From positions 1 through 48,883 of the forward strand of contig VGAC01000014.1 of assembly GCA_016870865.1 (NCBI GenBank): 48,883 nucleotides of DNA, written 5' to 3'. Of the stretch, positions 16,910 through 26,779 are shown in pieces. Both the position numbers and the translations under genes were made by a program. Each line of letters begins with the position of its first letter. Position 1 is the stretch's first letter. A model generated the notes under the pieces. The model did not search any database. It was not told where the DNA came from and saw nothing but the letters and a program-made list of their open reading frames with translations. Source of the DNA: Actinomycetota bacterium (GTDB taxonomy: Bacteria; Actinomycetota; Acidimicrobiia; Acidimicrobiales; Ilumatobacteraceae).

Positions 16910-17803
16910 TCAGCGCTGTGGTTCGGGTGCGGGCGGGGTCTTCTCGAAGGCCTGTTCGACTTCCTCGAACGTCAGCGTCGTGTCACGCACATAGGTCTGC
17001 TCGGCGTTGAAATTGCCGGCGAAGCGTTTGAAGAACATGAAGATGACGAGCGACCAGAGGAAGATGCTGCCACCAAGTTTCATGATCGCCCCGGCGAGTT
17101 GCTGATCCGTCGAAACCGAAAGACCCCACACGCGCACCGGCGTGTCGTAATGCTTGTACACCGTTCCCTCGGCGAAGGTCAGCCAGCCTGCGGGCACGGT
17201 CGGCACGATCGACATGAGGAAGAGGTAGATCATCTTGCCGCCGTAACCGATACGGAACTCCGTTGCCGGGCCGCAGATGGGTATCCACATCAACAGCGCC
17301 GAGGTGACGACCAGAACGTGCAACGAATAGTGCACCGCGCTACCCGAGGCACTCCGGTTGACCAGACCCGGAATGTGGGTGACCATGACCACCACGTTGA
17401 ATATCACGCCCGCGATGACCGGCTTGGAGAACCACCGCACGACGCGGTATCCCCCTCCGTCGCCGATGAGGGCGCGGAACATCCATTCCGGCAATGCGAG
17501 TAGCGCCAGGGGCGGAACGAAGTACGACAACGCCATGTGCTGGAGCATGTGCATCGAGTAGAGGTACTCCTCGGCGAGATCGTGCATGGGCCAGTCCGAT
17601 GCAATCCACAGCAGGATCATCGCCGCTGCAAATGCGACGATGTTCCGCCGCGTGACGATGGGCCCCGATGGCACGGCTTGTGGACCGATTACGCGCACTG
17701 CGTAGATGTAGGCGCCGATCAGGAACCCCACGAGGAGCCACAATTCCGGGTGCGCCTGAAAGCGCCACGGATCGAGAAGTGGATTGGCTGCTTCGGCAAT
17801 CAT
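16910..17803 (-). CDS. ctaG: Cytochrome c oxidase assembly factor CtaG (caa3 type)
   Basis: A 297-residue membrane protein of the caa3_CtaG family (PF09678), which is needed to form active caa3 oxidase, probably by delivering copper. About seven membrane segments are visible. Conserved His-rich pieces are SMHMLQHMALSYFVPPL and VMVTHIPGLVN, with SLHVLVVTSALLMW in between. A GGGGAGG ribosome site precedes ATG 17803. It is the last gene of the oxidase operon, 22 bases after subunit IV. Confidence 0.93.
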   Translation of the reverse strand: MIAEAANPLLDPWRFQAHPELWLLVGFLIGAYIYAVRVIGPQAVPSGPIVTRRNIVAFAAAMILLWIASDWPMHDLAEEYLYSMHMLQHMALSYFVPPLALLALPEWMFRALIGDGGGYRVVRWFSKPVIAGVIFNVVVMVTHIPGLVNRSASGSAVHYSLHVLVVTSALLMWIPICGPATEFRIGYGGKMIYLFLMSIVPTVPAGWLTFAEGTVYKHYDTPVRVWGLSVSTDQQLAGAIMKLGGSIFLWSLVIFMFFKRFAGNFNAEQTYVRDTTLTFEEVEQAFEKTPPAPEPQR

Positions 17804-17825: not shown

Positions 17826-18161
17826 TCACGCGGTGAAAAACTTGAAGGTGGCTAGGAAGGTTGCATAAACGCCAATGGCGAGGAACAACCCCGTGTAGAA
17901 CATGAAACTGAAGATCTTGCTGTCGAACTTCAGATGCATGAAGTAGGACACGACGATGAAGAACTTCACGCACATCAGTATCAAGAGAAGGGGCATGAAG
18001 AACGGTCCGAAATCCACGAAATACGTGGCCACTTCCAGGGCCGTCAGGGCCGCGAGCACCAGGGCAACCTTGATGTAGCCGATCGTGGTCATGCCGTGCT
18101 CGGCGTGCTCACCATGTGCTTCGTGTTCCATGTGTTCGGTGTGTCCTGCGGTGGTTGTCAT
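17826..18161 (-). CDS. Cytochrome c oxidase subunit IV (caa3/PF03626 type)
   Basis: A 111-residue small subunit. A His- and Glu-rich N-terminus (residues 6-23) is followed by three membrane segments; the middle one ends in KFFIVVSYFMHLKFDSK, the mark of this prokaryotic subunit IV family. It stabilises the CuB region of subunit I in known oxidases. ATG 18161 is preceded by GAGG at a suitable distance. Longer frames reaching 18527 are antisense-like and overlap subunit III, so were not used. Confidence 0.9.
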   Translation of the reverse strand: MTTTAGHTEHMEHEAHGEHAEHGMTTIGYIKVALVLAALTALEVATYFVDFGPFFMPLLLILMCVKFFIVVSYFMHLKFDSKIFSFMFYTGLFLAIGVYATFLATFKFFTA

Positions 18162-18192
18162 GCTTGAAACCTCGTGTACTTGCGGGGCCGTG

Positions 18193-18795
18193 TCAGGTCG
18201 GGATGAGATAGACGAGTGTGAAAATGATGATCCACACGATGTCAACGAAGTGCCAATAGAGACCCACCAGCTCGACAACCTCTGCCTTGTCGCCGGGCAC
18301 TCTGCTGCGCTTGATGATGCCGACCAGTGACAACAACATGATGACACCGACGGTGACGTGGACGCCGTGGAACCCGGTGAGCGTGTAGAACGCCGAGCCG
18401 AACAGGCTCGTTGTGAAACCAAGGCCCTCGTTGTACATCGCGGTGAACTCGTATACCTGGCCGCCGACGAACGTTGCCCCGAGCAAGCCCGTGACGGTGA
18501 GCCACAAGGTTGTGCCGCGATCATCACGCTTTTGCGCGGCGGCGACGGCCAGAACCATTGTGAGCGAACTCATCAACAGCACGAAACTGCTCACCGAGGT
18601 GAACGGGATGTCGAACACGTTGCCGGGTCGCGGGCCCTCGCCCACCCGACCCCGATAGATCATGTAGGTGCTGATGAGGCCACCGAACAGGAGGCACTCC
18701 GAACCGAGGAAGAGCCACATCCCCAACTTGTTGTTGGACAACCCCGTCGAGGTGTGGTGGCCGTATTCGGCGTGGTGAACTGCAGTGTCAACCAA
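18193..18795 (-). CDS. ctaE: Cytochrome c oxidase subunit III
   Basis: Subunit III of the aa3/caa3 oxidase, five membrane segments, about 200 residues. Family marks: NNKLGMWLFLGSECLLFGG with the conserved Glu, FHGVHVTVG, and GLYWHFVDIVWI. I take TTG 18795, because AAAGGAG lies 10 bases before it and the protein then starts just ahead of the family's usual N-terminus. ATG 18819 gives eight more residues but only repeats coding of subunit I in another frame, and GGAGG touches the ATG. Either way the start overlaps the end of subunit I. Confidence 0.93.
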   Translation of the reverse strand: MVDTAVHHAEYGHHTSTGLSNNKLGMWLFLGSECLLFGGLISTYMIYRGRVGEGPRPGNVFDIPFTSVSSFVLLMSSLTMVLAVAAAQKRDDRGTTLWLTVTGLLGATFVGGQVYEFTAMYNEGLGFTTSLFGSAFYTLTGFHGVHVTVGVIMLLSLVGIIKRSRVPGDKAEVVELVGLYWHFVDIVWIIIFTLVYLIPT

Positions 18796-20782
18796 GGGGC
18801 GCCAACTCCTTTGTGCCATCCTCCGAGGCAGGAGGATCGAAATCGGTTTCGGGTGCCGTGGACGGTTCGAGCGACCAGCCGAACAACGCCAAGACGACGA
18901 TCACGGCACCCACGATTGCCACGGGAATCGCGTAGATGACGCCGAGGGCAATCACCGGCAGACCGCTCGCGAGGATGATCGGCCAGTACGACGGCGACGG
19001 CATGTGGATGTGCTTGTCGGCATTCGCCTCTTGATCACGCACGATGTCTTCCGCGGTCGAAACTTGCTTGATCTCGTGCGTCACCGAATCCTGGGCGTAC
19101 TTGCGGTGGAAGAATTCGTCGAGGTGTCGAACCGTTGGTATGGCATCGAAGTTGTGCTCCTTGGGTGGGCTGGTCGTCATCCACTCGAGCGTGCGCGCAT
19201 CCCATGGATCGAGTGGAGCCACCTGCTTGCTGCGTGCGGTCTTCCAGACATTGATGAGGAACAGCAGAACGCCAACCGTGAGGATCAAGGAACCGATCGA
19301 CGCAACCCGATTCCAGAATCCGAGGTTAAAGAGGCCCTCACCGGCGCGTGCCTCGGTCCATATGTACATCCGGCGGGGCTGACCCTGCAAACCGATCATG
19401 TGCATCGGGCCGAAGGTCAGGTTCATACCGATCACCATCAACCAGAAGTTGGCCTTGCCGAGACGCTCGTTCAACTGCTTGCCGAACACCTTCGGCCACC
19501 AGTAATAGAAGCCGGCAAAAAGACCGAAGATCGCCCCACCGAAGAGCACGTAGTGGAAGTGCGCGACGATGTAGTACGTGTCTGTTTGCTGCGTGTCCGA
19601 CGGGGCGACGGCATGCGTGACACCCGACAGACCACCGATCGTGAACAGGACAACGAGACCGATTGCGAAGTGCATGGCGGCCGTGAAGTTCAACTTGCCG
19701 CCCCAGATCGTCATCGTCCAGTTGATGATCTTGACGCCGGTCGGTACGGCAATGGCCATCGTTGCGATCGAGAACACCGCCACCGACACCGGACCGAGAC
19801 CTGATGCGAACATGTGGTGAGCCCACACACCCCAGCCGACGAACCCGATGGCCGCGCCCGAGAAGACCACGAACGGATAGCCGAAGAGAGGCTTCTTAGA
19901 GAACACCGGCAGCACCTCGGAGATGATGCCGAAGCTGGGGAGAACGAGGATGTACACCTCGGGGTGACCGAAAATCCAGAACAAGTGCTGCCATAGCAAC
20001 GGGTCGGCACCCGCGGAGACGTCGAAAAACGTGGCACCGAAACTGCGCTGGAAACTCAGCAGGAACAGCGCAACGGTGATGACCGGGATGGCGAACAGCA
20101 GCAGGAACTGAACGACGAGCTGGAGCCAGGTGAAGACGGGCATCTTCATCAGGCTCATGCCCGGCGCGCGCATGTTGAGCACGGTGACGATCAGGTTCAC
20201 CGCACCCGTCAAGGAGGCGATACCCGTGATCTGCAGACCGAGGGCCCAAAAGTCGACGCCGTTGGAGGGCGAGAAGACGGGGCCCGAGTTCGGTGCGTAC
20301 ATGAACCACCCACCGTCGGCCGCACCGCCCAGGAACCACGACAGGTTGACGATGATTCCGCCGCCCACGAGGGTCCAGAAACCAAACGCGTTGATGCGCG
20401 GGAATGCAACGTCGCGCGCGCCAATCTGCAGGGGAACGAAATAGTTCGCGAATGCCGCGGCCATTGGCATGACGAAGAGGAACACCATCGTCGTCGCGTG
20501 CATCGTGAACATCTGGTTGTAGACATCGGCAGTCAGCACCTTGTTGTCGGGGGCCGCCAACTGGAGACGTATCAAGACGGCCTCGATGCCACCAACGATG
20601 AAGAAGAACATCGCCACTGCGCCGTACATGATGCCGAGCTTCTTGTGGTCGACGGTGAAGACCCATGACTTCCACCCGGTGGTGGCGACGGGCCGCCGCA
20701 GCGCACCATAGGTGCGTGTCGGCGTGACCGGGGCGGGTAGGGCGGGGGCTCCGACCGGGGCGGGACGTTCAATAATTGCCAT
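18788..20782 (-). CDS. ctaD: Cytochrome c oxidase subunit I, type A1, with C-terminal extension
   Basis: Catalytic subunit of the caa3 oxidase: 12 core membrane segments with heme a, heme a3 and CuB. Visible ligands: H95 in FTMHATTM (low-spin heme), H273 and Y277 in FGHPEVYIL (CuB and the cross-linked Tyr), H322-H323 in WAHHMF (CuB), and H408 and H410 in AHFHYVL (hemes a3 and a). D124 (GARD) opens the D channel and E275 is the type A1 glutamate. At 664 residues it is longer than usual (540-580). After the DPWDARTLEW motif come about 90 residues with two more membrane segments (from PSYWPIILASGLPVI). It overlaps subunit III. Confidence 0.96.
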   Translation of the reverse strand: MAIIERPAPVGAPALPAPVTPTRTYGALRRPVATTGWKSWVFTVDHKKLGIMYGAVAMFFFIVGGIEAVLIRLQLAAPDNKVLTADVYNQMFTMHATTMVFLFVMPMAAAFANYFVPLQIGARDVAFPRINAFGFWTLVGGGIIVNLSWFLGGAADGGWFMYAPNSGPVFSPSNGVDFWALGLQITGIASLTGAVNLIVTVLNMRAPGMSLMKMPVFTWLQLVVQFLLLFAIPVITVALFLLSFQRSFGATFFDVSAGADPLLWQHLFWIFGHPEVYILVLPSFGIISEVLPVFSKKPLFGYPFVVFSGAAIGFVGWGVWAHHMFASGLGPVSVAVFSIATMAIAVPTGVKIINWTMTIWGGKLNFTAAMHFAIGLVVLFTIGGLSGVTHAVAPSDTQQTDTYYIVAHFHYVLFGGAIFGLFAGFYYWWPKVFGKQLNERLGKANFWLMVIGMNLTFGPMHMIGLQGQPRRMYIWTEARAGEGLFNLGFWNRVASIGSLILTVGVLLFLINVWKTARSKQVAPLDPWDARTLEWMTTSPPKEHNFDAIPTVRHLDEFFHRKYAQDSVTHEIKQVSTAEDIVRDQEANADKHIHMPSPSYWPIILASGLPVIALGVIYAIPVAIVGAVIVVLALFGWSLEPSTAPETDFDPPASEDGTKELAPLG

Positions 20783-20797: not shown

Positions 20798-22021
20798 TCA
20801 CTTCAGAGTGGCGAGGTAGGCGACGAGTTTGTCGATGTCGTCCTCGGACAGGCCGAGGTTGGGCATTCCACGGTACTTGCCGCCCGACTTTTCGAGCTTT
20901 GTCGGGTCGGCGTACATTGCCTTCATTGCGGGGGCATTGCGCAGCCAGCGACGCAGGTCGTTCTGGTTCAAACAGTCCTCTGTGACGCCGGCCAGGTATT
21001 TCTCCCCGAATTCTTGGCTGGGGGAACCCCAGACGTCCTTGCGGCATCCCTTGGTCAGGAGGTCCCACGAGGCGCCGGCGAAGGTGTTGCGCGACATGAG
21101 GTGGGTGAGATTGGGCGCGGCGCCCGACCACACGTTGTCTTCCGGTGCCGCGATCGCAGGCGATCCGTCGGCCCTCTTGAGGCCGTTGACCTGGTGGCAA
21201 CGAATGCACTGGTTCAAAAAGACTGCCTCACCCTCTTTGGCGAGCGTGCCATCGGCGGGTGATGCGGCAAGCGAGAGTTGGCCCTTGACCCACGCGGCAA
21301 AGTCATCCCGGTCGAGCGCAACGGCTTCCATGCGCATCGCGGCATGCGACAGGCCGCAGAACTCCGTGCATTGACCGGCGTAAATACCGGGCTCGTCGGC
21401 CTCGAGGCGCAGGGTGTGCACGCGACCGGGGACCGCGTCACGCTTGCCGTTCAAAGCGGGAATCCAGTACGAGTGGATGACGTCGCGGCTGGTTTCGCGC
21501 AACAACACCTTGGTGCCGGCCGGAATGACCAACTGACCCGAGGTGATGATCGGGTCGGTGATGCCGTACTGCTCTTGGACCGGATAGTCGTACTCCCACC
21601 ACCACTGCTGGCCCGTCACGTTGATCACCATTTCGGTGTCGTCGGTCTTGGCGAGGTCAAAGATCGTCTGGAAGGTGAAGACACCGATGGCCGCGAGGAT
21701 GATCGCGGGAAGGACGGTCATACTGATTTCAAGCACGGGCTTGCCATGGGACTGCTCGGGAATCGGCTGACCGCGATCCCTGTACTTGAAGACCGCGTAG
21801 CCGATGGCGGCGAAAACAATGACGCCAACGATGCCGGCAATGGCAAATACCGGTCGTTGCAGATCGTCGATCTTCTCTGCATTCGGACCCTTTGGCTGCC
21901 AGGTGTCTTGTGGGGCGTTGCTGGCACAGCCGGACAGAAACGCGACACCCGCAAGGCCTGCCGCAGCCGCGACGAGACGACGCGCCGTTTTCGATGTTGG
22001 TACGGAATACCACTTGCTCAT
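20798..22021 (-). CDS. ctaC: Cytochrome c oxidase subunit II with fused cytochrome c (caa3)
   Basis: A 407-residue lipoprotein that takes electrons into the oxidase. A lipobox ends in LSGC at Cys32. Two membrane segments (about 57-78 and 99-122) precede the CuA cupredoxin domain, with H183, C218, E220, C222, H226 and M229 as CuA ligands (GQCTEFCGLSHAAM). A class I cytochrome c domain follows: CIRCH at 272-276 and the axial Met in RGMPNLGL. The fusion means no separate cytochrome c is needed. ATG 22021 overlaps the stop of the upstream gene (ATGA). Confidence 0.95.
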   Translation of the reverse strand: MSKWYSVPTSKTARRLVAAAAGLAGVAFLSGCASNAPQDTWQPKGPNAEKIDDLQRPVFAIAGIVGVIVFAAIGYAVFKYRDRGQPIPEQSHGKPVLEISMTVLPAIILAAIGVFTFQTIFDLAKTDDTEMVINVTGQQWWWEYDYPVQEQYGITDPIITSGQLVIPAGTKVLLRETSRDVIHSYWIPALNGKRDAVPGRVHTLRLEADEPGIYAGQCTEFCGLSHAAMRMEAVALDRDDFAAWVKGQLSLAASPADGTLAKEGEAVFLNQCIRCHQVNGLKRADGSPAIAAPEDNVWSGAAPNLTHLMSRNTFAGASWDLLTKGCRKDVWGSPSQEFGEKYLAGVTEDCLNQNDLRRWLRNAPAMKAMYADPTKLEKSGGKYRGMPNLGLSEDDIDKLVAYLATLK

Positions 22022-23139
22022 GGGACGAACACCTCAATGCTCTGGTCCTCGACTCCCGGGACGGAGAACGTGTAGGGCTTCTTGGATGCAATCGATGATT
22101 TGTCGATGCGGAACGTGAGGAGTTGCTCCTCACCCTCTTCGATCATTTGGGTGCAGGTGTGCAATTCCTCAACGACGCCTTCCTGCACCTTCTTCTCGCC
22201 GTAGTGAAGGGTCAGACGATACTCGCCCTCGGTCTGGTTGCGGAAGATGATCGAGGTGTTGCTCGACTTCTGGATCGTGATCTTCGATGTCGGGGAGTCG
22301 AGGCCAAGCTCGCGCGCCTGCAATTTTCCGCCGACGAATTCGATCGTGGCCGTGGGGTTAGACCGCATCGAGACCTTGGCCTCGGAGTTGAAGTCGAAGT
22401 ATTTGCTCTTCTCTTCACCGCACTCTTTGTGGGCGAAATGGTCTTCCTCGTTTGCCTCGACAAGCTGGTCGCGTTTGCCGGCGCTTGCACCGGCGATGCC
22501 ACCGGCCACGATGCCAACCGCACCAGCAGCGCACAGTCCGACGACGATGGTCTTTTTCAGGTTCGGCCGCAGTGCAAACACGATGCCACCGACCAGAACG
22601 ATGCAGCCCACGAGGATGAACACGATCGCGCCCGTCGTTTTCGAAACCGCCAACATGATGCGGGAGAACGGTACGACGACAACTGCCGCGCCAATGGCAG
22701 CGAGCACGGGGAATTCGAGCGGGTGAATCAAGCGACCACGTACGGAGGCGTTGAACTTCCGGTCCGAGGATGCTGTTTCCGACCAGCCTTGGATGACCCA
22801 CTCGACGAAGCCCGCGACCAGCGCGGAGAGTCCGAGGAGGAAAACGATCTCGTGGGTGATCAGACCTACGCCCATCACAACGATGCCGACGGTGGTGACG
22901 AGCGGCCAGAGGCTCGAGCCAATCGGCTCGGCATTGGCCGGCGCGGCTGTATCGCCCACCTCCACGTCCCCATCGCGGTTGAACAATGCAAGTCCAGCGA
23001 GTAGCCCCACCGCAAGCATGATCGAGGCGAGGGCAACCGCACCACCCACCGCACCGTCGACGAGTGCGATGTAGACAACGAGAACGACGGCCGAGAAGCC
23101 GGTCACGCCTATCAGGTATTTGGAGCCGTTGGTGAACAT
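22018..23139 (-). CDS. Membrane protein with CtaF-like N-terminus and cupredoxin-like C-terminal domain
   Basis: A 373-residue protein not recognised as a named family with certainty. Residues 1-165 have four likely membrane segments and carry VEWVIQGWSE, GRLIHPLEFPVLAAIG and FSRIMLAVS, resembling the actinobacterial oxidase subunit IV (CtaF). Two or three more segments lie at 167-220. Residues 265-373 outside the membrane look like a cupredoxin fold (SIIFRNQTEGEYRLTLHYG; PYTFSVPGVEDQSIEVFV), but the Cys and His copper ligands of that fold are missing. It sits between the subunit III-like gene (7-base gap) and ctaC (ATGA overlap). ATG 23139 is chosen because upstream codons look non-coding. 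Confidence 0.65.
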   Translation of the reverse strand: MFTNGSKYLIGVTGFSAVVLVVYIALVDGAVGGAVALASIMLAVGLLAGLALFNRDGDVEVGDTAAPANAEPIGSSLWPLVTTVGIVVMGVGLITHEIVFLLGLSALVAGFVEWVIQGWSETASSDRKFNASVRGRLIHPLEFPVLAAIGAAVVVVPFSRIMLAVSKTTGAIVFILVGCIVLVGGIVFALRPNLKKTIVVGLCAAGAVGIVAGGIAGASAGKRDQLVEANEEDHFAHKECGEEKSKYFDFNSEAKVSMRSNPTATIEFVGGKLQARELGLDSPTSKITIQKSSNTSIIFRNQTEGEYRLTLHYGEKKVQEGVVEELHTCTQMIEEGEEQLLTFRIDKSSIASKKPYTFSVPGVEDQSIEVFVP

Positions 23140-23146
23140 CCCGCGC

Positions 23147-23752
23147 CTATTTCTGAACGAAAACCACGAACCACACGGCCGTGTATGCAGCGGACAGGAA
23201 ATACCAATAGAGAGCGTGCGCATTCATGAGATCGGTGTTGCCTGCACGACCACCGGTGCTCTTGAACAATGCGGCGAGCGTGAAAGCCACCCCTGCAAGG
23301 ACGAAGGTGATCAACGTGCCGGTGATTGCGTAGAACATCGTCTGATACGGGCCGTCGGCAAGAACAATTTCCATGTTGGGGTACACCGCAACAAGACCGT
23401 TCAGCAGGGCGAGGCTCATCAACAACGTCATGCCGAGCGCCATGCTGGTGTGGCGTGAATCTTTTCGTCGCGACGAATAGACGGCCCACTGGGCCATGAT
23501 GCAGGCGACGCCCACGGTGACCAGACCCACATTGGTGAGGACCTCGGCCATCTTCAGGTCCTCGGGCAACCAGTCCTTGATTTGCTTGAGGCCGTCGGAC
23601 GACTCGCGCAACGGTGCGGCGTCACGGAAGCGCAGCCAGATCGAAAGCATGCCGCCGATCAGCAGCGCACCTGCTGCTGAGACGACGCCGGTGCCAACGA
23701 GCAACTGGCGCCGCGGTGCGGGCTGGGGACCGGCCGGCAGGACGTGCGTCAT
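23147..23752 (-). CDS. Degenerate cytochrome c oxidase subunit III-like protein
   Basis: A 201-residue membrane protein. It aligns along its length with subunit III at 18193-18795: the loop before segment 3 (YSSRRKDSR against AAQKRDDRG), FYAITGTLITF against FYTLTGFHGVHVTV, and ALYWYFLSAAYTAVWF against GLYWHFVDIVWIIIF. The conserved Glu of segment 1, the HGVH pair and the WHFVD His and Asp are all replaced. It is therefore a subunit III paralogue without the conserved polar residues. ATG 23752 overlaps the stop of the subunit I-like gene (ATGA). Partner of that gene in the same operon. Confidence 0.75.
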   Translation of the reverse strand: MTHVLPAGPQPAPRRQLLVGTGVVSAAGALLIGGMLSIWLRFRDAAPLRESSDGLKQIKDWLPEDLKMAEVLTNVGLVTVGVACIMAQWAVYSSRRKDSRHTSMALGMTLLMSLALLNGLVAVYPNMEIVLADGPYQTMFYAITGTLITFVLAGVAFTLAALFKSTGGRAGNTDLMNAHALYWYFLSAAYTAVWFVVFVQK

Positions 23753-25377
23753 TTCACACTCCCCGTCGGCTTGAGGTCGAAGAGTGGTTCGGGGCTCGAC
23801 ACGGCGGGCACCGATGCGAAGTTGTCGGCCGGGGCGGGTGACGACACCGACCATTCGAGAGTCTGTGCATCCCACGGATCGTCACCGGCAGGTTCGCCGT
23901 TGCGGAACGCACGCGCTGCGGTGAGAGCAAAAAGCACGATCGTCACGGCGAGGATCGCCGATCCCGCGGCAGCGAGTCCGTTCCAGAGTTCCTGCGGTCC
24001 TCCGTAGGCGAAGCCATCGACCACACCCGCGGGCTGGTCGGCGAAACCAGCGACATAGAGCGGCAGCGACGACAACACCGTGCCGAGGAAACCCAACGTG
24101 CCGAGGCCAAACACCGCCGACCGGGGAAGCGAGCGGCCCCACAACTTGGGACCCCAGAATGAAATCGCTCCGATGCCCATGAGCACCGTGCCATAGATGA
24201 CGTAGTTGAACTCGCCCTCCTCGAACACGGTGCCGGCCAGTCCGGCGGGGCCGAACTGTGCGACCAAGTGACCCGCCATACCCGCGAGGACCATGCCAAG
24301 ACCAAGGACGGCGGGCACGAGCGGAGCTATCACGCGCGGCTTGCCCTGCGCGAGACCGAGAACACAACCACCCAGGACGACGAGCGCACCAAGGACCGGG
24401 AGGCCGTTGAAGATGAGGAACGGAAGGAGTTCCTTCACCTTGTCGCTGCCCGAGGTGTCGGTCCACGTCAGCGCGTGCTGGACCTGGGTGGCACCACCGA
24501 ACGCAGCCACACTGAGCACACCCGCACCGACGAGGAGGATCGCTCGCAGCGGATGACGACGTCCACTTGCAACCGTTGCGATTTCGGCGACGACCCCGAC
24601 ACCTATTGCCGCGAACACGTAGGTCTGGGGTTGCGTCATCGACCAGCCGAGCCAATCGTTGACACCCTTGTTGCCGCCGAAGGCGAGTCGCCCGTAGTGA
24701 TGGTCGACGTAGAGGTAAATGGCCGTGCCGACGACGACGGGAAGCGTGAGGAGCAGCGACACCCCGCCCGTCAGCGCCGCCCATGTCAGCATGGGCACGC
24801 GGGCCAAAGACATGCCCGGCGCGCGGTTCGTGAGAACGGTGGTGACCAGTGAAACCGTCGCGGCCAGAGCGCCGGCGGCCGTTATGGCCACACCAACCAA
24901 GAAGAGGTCGACCATCTTTGCCTCACCGCCACCAGGACCGCCGTTTGCGGCGATCGACGAGATGCATAGGAGGAGGCCGGCGAGCCACATCCAAAAGCCG
25001 AACAGGGCAAGACGACCAAAGGCGATCGCCTTGGAGCCGATCTGCAGGGGCACGATTGCGATTGCGATACCAAGCATCAGAGGCAACGCAACGCCAAAGG
25101 ACAGCACGACGCGGTAGAGCGATGACAGTTGCACCACGGAGTCGAGATCGAGGATCAGATATCCGCCGGCGCCGATGCGCTCGAATCCGAGGAGCGCCCC
25201 GATGACGGCGGACGCCGCACCGCCGAGCAGTGCCGTCACTGCGAAGAGACGGCCGATCTTCTTGTGGTCGGTTGTGGTTGCCCATGACCCAACACCAACG
25301 ACCAGCGCCCCGAGGGCGCCAGCGCCGGAAGAGGACGCTGCGGCGGGCGCCGCAGCATGCGTGTCGAAGGTGGTCAT
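23749..25377 (-). CDS. Subunit I-like protein lacking heme and CuB ligands (pseudo-oxidase)
   Basis: A 542-residue membrane protein clearly related to subunit I. Shared landmarks are TTDHKKIG (35-42), IVPLQIG, NRAPGMSL (184-191), FWGPKLWG and a C-terminal DPWDAQTLEW. Yet the cofactor residues are gone: the low-spin heme His is Tyr89; FGHPEVY reads MTQPQTY (H to Q, E to Q; Tyr253 kept); at most one His remains at the WAHHM site (His301); AHFHY reads GEFNY (both heme His lost); and the D-channel Asp is Ala117. It cannot bind hemes as known oxidases do. It is the first gene of the oxidase operon. A TAGTCT box lies on the minus strand at 25416-25411, 33 bases upstream. The frame is intact, so it is not a pseudogene. 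Confidence 0.85.
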   Translation of the reverse strand: MTTFDTHAAAPAAASSSGAGALGALVVGVGSWATTTDHKKIGRLFAVTALLGGAASAVIGALLGFERIGAGGYLILDLDSVVQLSSLYRVVLSFGVALPLMLGIAIAIVPLQIGSKAIAFGRLALFGFWMWLAGLLLCISSIAANGGPGGGEAKMVDLFLVGVAITAAGALAATVSLVTTVLTNRAPGMSLARVPMLTWAALTGGVSLLLTLPVVVGTAIYLYVDHHYGRLAFGGNKGVNDWLGWSMTQPQTYVFAAIGVGVVAEIATVASGRRHPLRAILLVGAGVLSVAAFGGATQVQHALTWTDTSGSDKVKELLPFLIFNGLPVLGALVVLGGCVLGLAQGKPRVIAPLVPAVLGLGMVLAGMAGHLVAQFGPAGLAGTVFEEGEFNYVIYGTVLMGIGAISFWGPKLWGRSLPRSAVFGLGTLGFLGTVLSSLPLYVAGFADQPAGVVDGFAYGGPQELWNGLAAAGSAILAVTIVLFALTAARAFRNGEPAGDDPWDAQTLEWSVSSPAPADNFASVPAVSSPEPLFDLKPTGSVK

Positions 25378-25488: not shown

Positions 25489-26439
25489 CTAGGACACGCC
25501 GTGGCGCACGAGCACGTCGAGAGCGATCGCCCCGAACACGAGGGTGATGTAGGAGATCGAATACGAAAACAACCGCATCGAGGTGGCCGGCGTCGGGCGG
25601 CGGCGCAGGAAGTCGACCCCGACCAAGAAACCCGTTCCCAGAACCGCCGCCACCACCCAATAAACGGGTCCGAGATCAGCGACGGGAGCGAGAATGAGGC
25701 TCGACGTGACCAACGTCACCGTGTAGAGGAACATGCTGCGGATCGTCCGCTCCATCGACACAACCGTCGGCAGCATTGGCACCTTTGCCGCCCGGTAATC
25801 ATCGGCGTGGCGAATAGCGAGAGCCCAGAAATGGGGCGGGGTCCAGAGGAAAATGAGGAGAAAGAGTACGACGGCGGACCACGAGACACTGTTGGTCACC
25901 GCCGACCAGCCAACGAGAACCGGAACCGCGCCCGCCGCGCCACCGATCACGATGTTCTGGCGGCTCGTGCGCTTTAGCCACAGAGAGTAAACAACGACAT
26001 AAAAGAGGGTCGCGCTGAAGGTGAGAACAGCCGACAACAGGTTTGCCCCGATCCACAACACCGTGAATGCGGCGGCTTCCAGGGTCCAGGCAAAGACGAT
26101 GGCCTGCCGCGGCGACACCAGCCCGGTGACGAGCGGGCGGTGCTTCGTGCGTTCCATCAGTCCGTCGATGTCGCGGTCGATGACCATGTTGAGGGCGTTC
26201 GCGCCGCCCGCGGCGAGCGACCCGCCGATGAGGGTCACGACCACAAGGGCCGTGGAGGGCCAACCGCGACGGGCGAGGACCATCGTCGGGACGGTCGTCA
26301 CGAGGAGCAATTCGATGATTCGGGGCTTGGTGAGGGCGACAAAACCGCCGGCCAGGGAACGCGGTCTGCGCTGAGCACCATGCGAAAACGCCTTGCGGGC
26401 AATTCGCGAGGGGACGATCGGGCGTGCGCTGACAGCCAT
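25489..26439 (-). CDS. ctaB: Protoheme IX farnesyltransferase (heme O synthase)
   Basis: Adds a farnesyl group to heme b to make heme O, the precursor of heme A for the oxidase downstream. The UbiA-fold protein has 316 residues and about nine membrane segments. Prenyl-diphosphate motifs are NMVIDRDIDGLMERTKHRPL and HADDYRAAKVPMLP, and the NIVIGGAAGAVPVLVGW and WTPPHFWALA segments are typical. ATG 26439 is chosen because upstream codons read into the divergent clpS region; a TACCAT box ends 9 bases before it. It is separated from the oxidase operon by 111 bases and divergent from clpS. Confidence 0.95.
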   Translation of the reverse strand: MAVSARPIVPSRIARKAFSHGAQRRPRSLAGGFVALTKPRIIELLLVTTVPTMVLARRGWPSTALVVVTLIGGSLAAGGANALNMVIDRDIDGLMERTKHRPLVTGLVSPRQAIVFAWTLEAAAFTVLWIGANLLSAVLTFSATLFYVVVYSLWLKRTSRQNIVIGGAAGAVPVLVGWSAVTNSVSWSAVVLFLLIFLWTPPHFWALAIRHADDYRAAKVPMLPTVVSMERTIRSMFLYTVTLVTSSLILAPVADLGPVYWVVAAVLGTGFLVGVDFLRRRPTPATSMRLFSYSISYITLVFGAIALDVLVRHGVS

Positions 26440-26470
26440 GGAGTCGTAATGGTACGGGCAGAATGGTGCC

Positions 26471-26779
26471 GTGCCATCAACGGTGCCCTCTACTCGCGAA
26501 GAACTCGACCTCGACCAGAGCCTCGACACGACGACCGATTCGCCGTGGGTCGTCATCGTGTGGAACGACCCGATCAACCTCATGTCGTACGTCACGCTCG
26601 TCCTCCGCAAAGTGTTCGGCTACAGCCTCGAAAAAGCGACACAGTTGATGCTCGACGTGCACCACAAGGGTCGTGCGGTTGTCTCGAGCGGCCCGCGTGA
26701 ACGTGCAGAGCTCGATGTCTACCGACTGCATGAACACGGCTTGTGGGCGACGATGCAAAAGGACGGCAACGACAAGTGA
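26471..26779 (+). CDS. clpS: ATP-dependent Clp protease adaptor ClpS
   Basis: Delivers proteins with destabilising N-terminal residues to ClpAP/ClpCP. The 102-residue protein has a loose N-terminus followed by the ClpS core: [20 protein letters not shown] with the N-degron pocket residues, [17 protein letters not shown] with the key His pair, and [19 protein letters not shown]. The start is GTG 26471; a second GTG at 26486 would remove five residues. The stop overlaps the start of the DUF2017 gene (TGATG). Neighbour order clpS-DUF2017 is standard in actinobacteria. Confidence 0.93.

Follow-up and report, generated by a model that had tools for sequence, protein, structure and literature searches.

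The window analysed here, i.e., a 48,883-nt stretch of DNA from an Ilumatobacteraceae bacterium (Actinomycetota, Acidimicrobiales; positions 1 to 48,883 of contig VGAC01000014.1 in assembly GCA_016870865.1), carries directly before the structural genes of a caa3-type cytochrome oxidase three genes that encode a subunit I homologue (I'), a subunit III homologue (III') and a third protein (X). We lean towards the reading that I', III' and X represent the cofactor-free ghost of an aa3-type oxidase core, which persists as a non-catalytic partner to the caa3 oxidase. Its basis consists of the predicted fold of I', ligand loss, the recurrence of that loss among homologues, purifying selection, grouping with aa3-type enzymes, a constant gene cluster and overlapping codons; the partnership itself we infer from gene order. 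The preliminary description of this DNA had centred on I'; the gene is one of three forming a near-complete aa3-like core.

His ligands serve as the signature for recognising heme-copper oxidases in genomes, and the ghost clade lacks most or all of them; a match to the COX1 profile alone does not equal an oxidase. The ghosts constitute a natural experiment on the roles of a non-catalytic oxidase body, such as dimer or supercomplex contacts and assembly, and they provide a graded series of cofactor loss on a single tree. No description of such a protein among heme-copper oxidases was found in the open-licence literature, and we know of no earlier case of an oxidase core without cofactors being retained in much of an order.

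The gene cluster and its predicted proteins

The I' gene is an uninterrupted minus-strand ORF (ATG at 25377, stop codon ending at 23749, 542 aa; Table 1), as the preliminary description had reported, and the landmark motifs quoted there are present in the translation. The protein exceeds the gathering score of the Pfam COX1 family (117 bits vs 34.8, E 1.2e-33), and its nearest solved relatives by sequence are actinobacterial CtaD chains, mostly mycobacterial (E about 1e-42). Its AlphaFold2 model, built with 69 natural homologues (pLDDT 90.3, pTM 0.92), could be superimposed by VIA-align over 498 residues on Mycobacterium smegmatis CtaD (6adq_F) at 2.6 Å (Z 40.5), with Escherichia coli bo3 and a second M. 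smegmatis entry tying with 6adq_F; the top Foldseek match was also mycobacterial. By homology, i.e., the COX1 profile and the 12-helix fold together, I' is a member of the heme-copper oxidase superfamily. It falls far under the equivalog cut-off of the working oxidases (195 vs 670.75 bits), which the CtaD of the same gene run passes at 682 bits (TIGR02891), and it lacks the features of a functional A-type heme-copper oxidase, i.e., the six His, the D- and K-channel residues and the helix VI Glu.

Table 1. Genes of the oxidase cluster in the window
Gene	Positions	Strand	Product or assignment	Basis
ctaB	25489..26610	-	Heme O synthase; longest ORF, true start probably inside	Profile matches
I'	23749..25377	-	Subunit I homologue without heme or CuB ligands	ORF, COX1 profile, alignment, predicted fold
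III'	23147..23752	-	Subunit III homologue, 201 aa	COX3 6e-6; aa3_CtaE_Actin 4.4e-8, below family cut-off
X	22018..23139	-	373 aa: CtaF-like front, three more helices, C-terminal cupredoxin without copper motif	Profile, model
ctaC	20798..22021	-	Oxidase subunit II with fused cytochrome c, caa3 type	Profile matches
ctaD	18788..20782	-	Catalytic subunit I, all six His	TIGR02891 682 bits, over cut-off
ctaE	18193..18819	-	Subunit III of the catalytic oxidase	Profile matches
ctaF	17826..18173	-	Subunit IV of the caa3 oxidase, start assumed	PF03626 7e-11; TIGR02229
ctaG	16910..17803	-	caa3 assembly factor	PF09678 2.6e-39

I' had been described as the first gene of the oxidase operon, but ctaB lies upstream of it on the same strand across a gap of 111 bases; a promoter/terminator scan between the two genes found nothing. 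Stop and start codons overlap by 4 bases at two junctions, I'/III' and X/ctaC. Further down, ctaD and ctaE overlap by 32 bases (18788-18819), provided that the listed ATG of ctaE is right.

III' is nearest to the actinobacterial aa3 subunit III family, which matches 27 of the 28 rows of the III' alignment, the remaining row being a real CtaE. X of the window has no Pfam match of its own. Its front (positions 5-122) was matched by profile to actinobacterial subunit 4, CtaF (7q21_F, E 5.1e-5), and PF12270 matches X in 7/35 members, the window's X not among them. The model of X is weaker than that of I' (pLDDT 77.7, pTM 0.44) and contains seven long helices and a C-terminal beta domain with a cupredoxin fold (Z 11.7; Foldseek 2.6e-5). 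Despite this fold X gave no COX2 match, the copper motif is present in none of ten full-length X proteins from the window's family, and X thus lacks the CuA-carrying cupredoxin that defines an oxidase subunit II. In the other aligned members of the order X ends without the C-terminal domain; the contacts made by X can therefore not be constant, since the cupredoxin domain is missing in many members.

Ligand loss in I' and its homologues

Residue numbers and replacements were read from an alignment of I' with the CtaD of the operon. All six CtaD His are replaced in I' (H95 by Y88, H273 by Q249, H322 by Q298, H323 by V299, H408 by E389 and H410 by N391), as are D124 (Ala), K351 (Val) and E275 (Gln), which we take to be the D-channel Asp, the K-channel Lys and the helix VI Glu, respectively; the helix VI Tyr is retained. 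The roles of the helix I Arg and of the propionate Arg pair, referred to below, are likewise presumed. The earlier account of these replacements held for the EFN in place of HFH (E389, N391) and for the Ala at the D-channel Asp, and needed two corrections: the residue at the low-spin heme position is Tyr88 rather than Tyr89, and the His-His pair, said to keep at most one His, has none at either aligned position, the nearest (H301) lying two residues further on. An oxidase without heme ligands, CuB and proton channels can neither catalyse nor pump by the known mechanism, and since all of these are gone, I' is unable to work as an oxidase or pump in that way. Near the former low-spin heme site I' has E66 and R89, both typical of the ghosts; the two residues occur together in 48/80 ghost rows (Fisher p 0.009, kinship of the rows ignored), and a salt bridge between them in the vacated pocket is possible.

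A scan of public genomes yielded 44 loci. In nine of them (L001-L009) the I' protein is 42-90% identical to that of the window where compared and the ligands are missing wherever covered; among the other 35, the 11 that were read are all catalytic. The comparison was later widened by a search of 395 genomes of the class and further fetches to 81 ghost and 66 catalytic proteins, two of the ghosts (L107 and L115) having been scored as ctaD by profile and assigned by hand from position and ligands. Among the 81 ghosts none of the six His is kept in 54, one in 16, two in seven and three in four, and no ghost (0/81) keeps two CuB His; in the catalytic set each His is present in 65 or 66 of 66 proteins, the sole miss being an alignment gap. 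Within the family of the window, 29 of 36 rows lack all six His and seven retain one. The preliminary description had regarded His ligands in relatives as a sign of a decaying copy: the family rows keep at most one, and more distant members do keep two or three. The recurrence of the replacements that it had proposed to look for by alignment was found, the same kind of loss being present in all 81 homologues examined, which makes the ligand loss of I' more than chance.

Gln occupies two of the CuB positions in 51/81 and 65/81 ghosts, so that replacement there is non-random; the former a3 and low-spin positions vary widely, the helix II position still being His in 22/81. Four new residues, R43, E66, R89 and R274, are conserved as ghost-typical. 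Among the 111 alignment columns conserved at 97% or more in the catalytic set, 33 are still conserved at 80% or more among the ghosts, and these are framework positions, e.g., those of the PLQ.GA, FPR, RAPGM and LEW motifs. Another 50 fall below 15%, including the other five His, both channels and the Arg pair, and the remaining 28 lie between 15% and 80%. The K-channel Lys did not occur among the residues listed for the 81 ghosts, nor in a separate count (0/71).

Ancestry, selection and distribution

A maximum-likelihood tree of 52 rows, rooted on E. coli CyoB as the single outgroup, unites all 22 ghosts (100/100) and joins their clade to actinobacterial aa3-type CtaD (100/97); the caa3 CtaD encoded in the ghosts' own operons are placed elsewhere. 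The idea that I' is a copy of the neighbouring ctaD, implied when it was first described as a paralogue of the operon's own subunit I, is rejected by this rooted tree. III' and the front of X point to an aa3 ancestry likewise. The ghost branches are long, and the 12 rows that fail the composition test are all ghosts; these features and the single outgroup leave the exact sister of the ghosts provisional.

L107 branches first among the ghosts (split support 94/78), followed by L115, L126 and L127. In these four both low-spin His and the helix I Arg are still present, in the last three the a3 His as well, while every CuB His and the Arg pair are lost in all of them; their X proteins retain a C..H..M motif (4/4). 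Three others (L077, L081 and L083) keep the low-spin His pair and have an X without that motif. The pair is found in 7/81 ghosts, for which a redox role is thus possible, and in no row of the window's family. The branching order suggests that CuB was lost first.

For estimates of selection, dN/dS was calculated by the method of Nei and Gojobori between the window and loci L001 and L002, in that order; most pairs with L004 and L051 were at or near synonymous saturation. The values were 0.071 and 0.107 for I', 0.080 and 0.072 for III', and 0.083 and 0.085 for X, with those of ctaB (0.077, 0.106) similar to I', against 0.033 and 0.053 for ctaD and 0.025 and 0.039 for ctaE. The amino acids of I', III' and X thus change approximately two to three times faster than those of ctaD and ctaE, which fits a partner but also an independent role. 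A neutral ratio near 1 and frameshifts in relatives had been named beforehand as further marks of decay; the ratio is about 0.1, and neither a frameshift nor an internal stop was seen in the family members read (no internal stop in I' of the window or of L001-L009, and the TGA of L070 terminates a protein whose tail is shorter). Ligand loss together with these ratios supports the earlier proposal of a retained, catalytically silent subunit I. The C-terminal tail bearing the LEW motif is absent from I' of L070, L075 and L076.

Profiles of I' also catch catalytic CtaD, and X was therefore used as the marker of the ghost. By hand counts in a class sample of 395 genomes, from two screens treated as the same draw, X was found at 2.5e-51 or better in 95/151 genomes of Acidimicrobiales (28/29 of the window's family and 67/122 others); 56/151 are without X at this strong level, two genomes of the order having a match near 1e-6. 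The best match elsewhere in the class was 2.6e-16, and a phylum sample of 396 genomes reached at best 1.3e-27 beyond the class; the weak matches listed from outside the order are confined to the middle helices or the CtaF-like front and were excluded from the ghost clusters. I' itself was found at 8e-127 or better in 27/29 family genomes; in G031 it is cut at the contig end, and G161 gave no I' match at 1e-30, catalytic CtaD included. That I' lies beside X was seen in the fetched loci, a subset of the 95 genomes with X. One ghost carrier, Desertimonas flava SYSU D60003 (L008; Ilumatobacteraceae, Acidimicrobiales in NCBI), makes the ghost testable in a named strain. Two loci with actinobacterial-looking oxidase genes, L002 and L019, come from records titled Acidobacteria and Saccharibacteria, and I' of L002 is 83% identical to that of the window; these labels or bins are probably wrong.

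The cluster has the order ctaB-I'-III'-X-ctaC-D-E-F-G. Fifty of the fetched stretches contain both a strong X and a catalytic ctaD. In 49 of them I' and III' precede X, and ctaC and ctaD follow it, all on one strand; the exception (L129) begins at a contig end. ctaB lies in front in 47 of 49 ghost clusters, and ctaG follows ctaF in the window and in many loci. Outside the order, none of the seven fetched caa3 loci with ctaD has a ghost beside it, all seven having ctaC, D, E and F and six of them ctaG. The caa3 oxidase does not need the ghost in general, because 56/151 genomes of the order lack X and 7/7 loci outside it lack the ghost. The genome of the window (96% complete) encodes two COX1 proteins, i.e., the ghost and the caa3 CtaD.

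Possible roles and comparison with known systems

The probable role of I' is that of a structural partner, not of an enzyme. As we picture it, the genes of an aa3 oxidase core would have been placed before ctaCDEFG in an ancestor of the order; CuB would have been lost first and the hemes after, and the copper site of the cupredoxin would have been lost or the domain dropped. Contacts with caa3 subunits may be the reason why the membrane body was retained, in that it would form the other half of a lopsided oxidase complex or a platform for caa3 assembly, and such a ghost would be expected to contain no heme, to reduce no O2 and to pump no protons. A stronger version, which we put forward tentatively and hold to be rather less than an even bet, is that in a respiratory complex widespread in the order the live caa3 oxidase pairs, as a lopsided dimer, with what is left of an older aa3 oxidase, a metal-free body whose contacts stayed essential; if true, the early branches that keep the heme His pair and the copper motif would be living intermediates between an enzyme and a scaffold. 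A proton- or quinone-handling role, also considered in the preliminary description, obtained no support.

It is also conceivable, if unlikely, that the ghost acts solely in assembly or maturation, transiently holding CtaC, CtaE or cofactor-delivery proteins and being absent from the finished enzyme. The overlap of the ghost genes with ctaC, which they precede, and the regular company of ctaB and ctaG would suit such a factor; three oxidase-core subunits kept together are much for a chaperone, and profile searches found no chaperone motif. We give a still smaller chance to an independent new function, e.g., in transport, signalling or a separate membrane complex, with the operon shared for co-regulation only. 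The four newly conserved residues, the Gln at two CuB positions and the co-occurrence of E66 with R89 are what such a function might leave behind, against which stand the constant place in the caa3 cluster and the finding that no other family matched I' above COX1.

That the ghost survives from the bcc-aa3 supercomplex, still forming a structural part of actinobacterial complex III as a dead aa3 core, appears improbable. Its aa3 ancestry on the tree agrees with this, as does the binding of actinobacterial aa3 to complex III (6adq and others, by structure titles); the ghost does not, however, track actinobacterial QcrC. In the 55 ghost genomes of a 198-genome sample of the order (hand counts, two screens treated as the same draw), 43 have no QcrC match at 1e-10, three have one below the cut-off and nine one above it, and 8/9 of the latter also carry a separate aa3 CtaD of at least 775 bits; G114 has the ghost and QcrC over the cut-off without an aa3 CtaD of 700 bits or more. 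The aa3 and caa3 enzymes were told apart by bit scores here, the curated cut-off of NF050116 having failed to separate them (0/198 genomes above it; matches below it in 8/14 control genomes). The genome of the window has no such QcrC. By ORF reading, its complex III cluster (L080, 5442-8866) contains two ORFs for a split cytochrome b, one for a Rieske protein and one for a 340-aa protein with two CxxCH motifs (a diheme cytochrome c), and adjoins NADH dehydrogenase-like ORFs. The weakest reading, that I' is a decaying pseudogene, might appeal to the loss of all ligands, the faster amino-acid change than in ctaD and the missing tail in three family members, and was rejected as extremely improbable on the open frames, a dN/dS of about 0.1 that contradicts it, the confidently predicted fold and retention across the order.

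Three known systems invite comparison with the ghost as we read it, i.e., the metal-free remainder of an aa3-type core at the side of a caa3 oxidase. The first is the actinobacterial aa3 oxidase of the bcc-aa3 supercomplex (CtaD, CtaE, CtaF; 6adq, 7q21), with which I' shares its fold (Z 40.5) and tree position, and whose subunits III and IV also have relatives in the three-gene unit. Unlike that enzyme, the ghost lacks heme, CuB and the channel residues, has no CuA subunit II of its own, and is encoded with a caa3 oxidase and without a link to QcrC. The second is the caa3 oxidase of the operon, to which the ghost genes are adjacent in constant order and with overlapping codons; its CtaD, unlike I', has the full set of ligands and takes a different position on the tree. 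The third is a three-helix cupredoxin protein encoded beyond ctaF/ctaG in caa3 loci outside the order (L133-L140, e.g., L134 6517-7212), which matches the middle of X. It differs from X in being a separate gene without a subunit-IV part, and its copper motif is kept in 7/8 loci by the pattern used, L139 having a variant; X may thus be a fusion. In a wider sense the ghost resembles pseudoenzyme partners, in which a dead homologue is kept with a live enzyme, here a dead homologue alongside a live oxidase.
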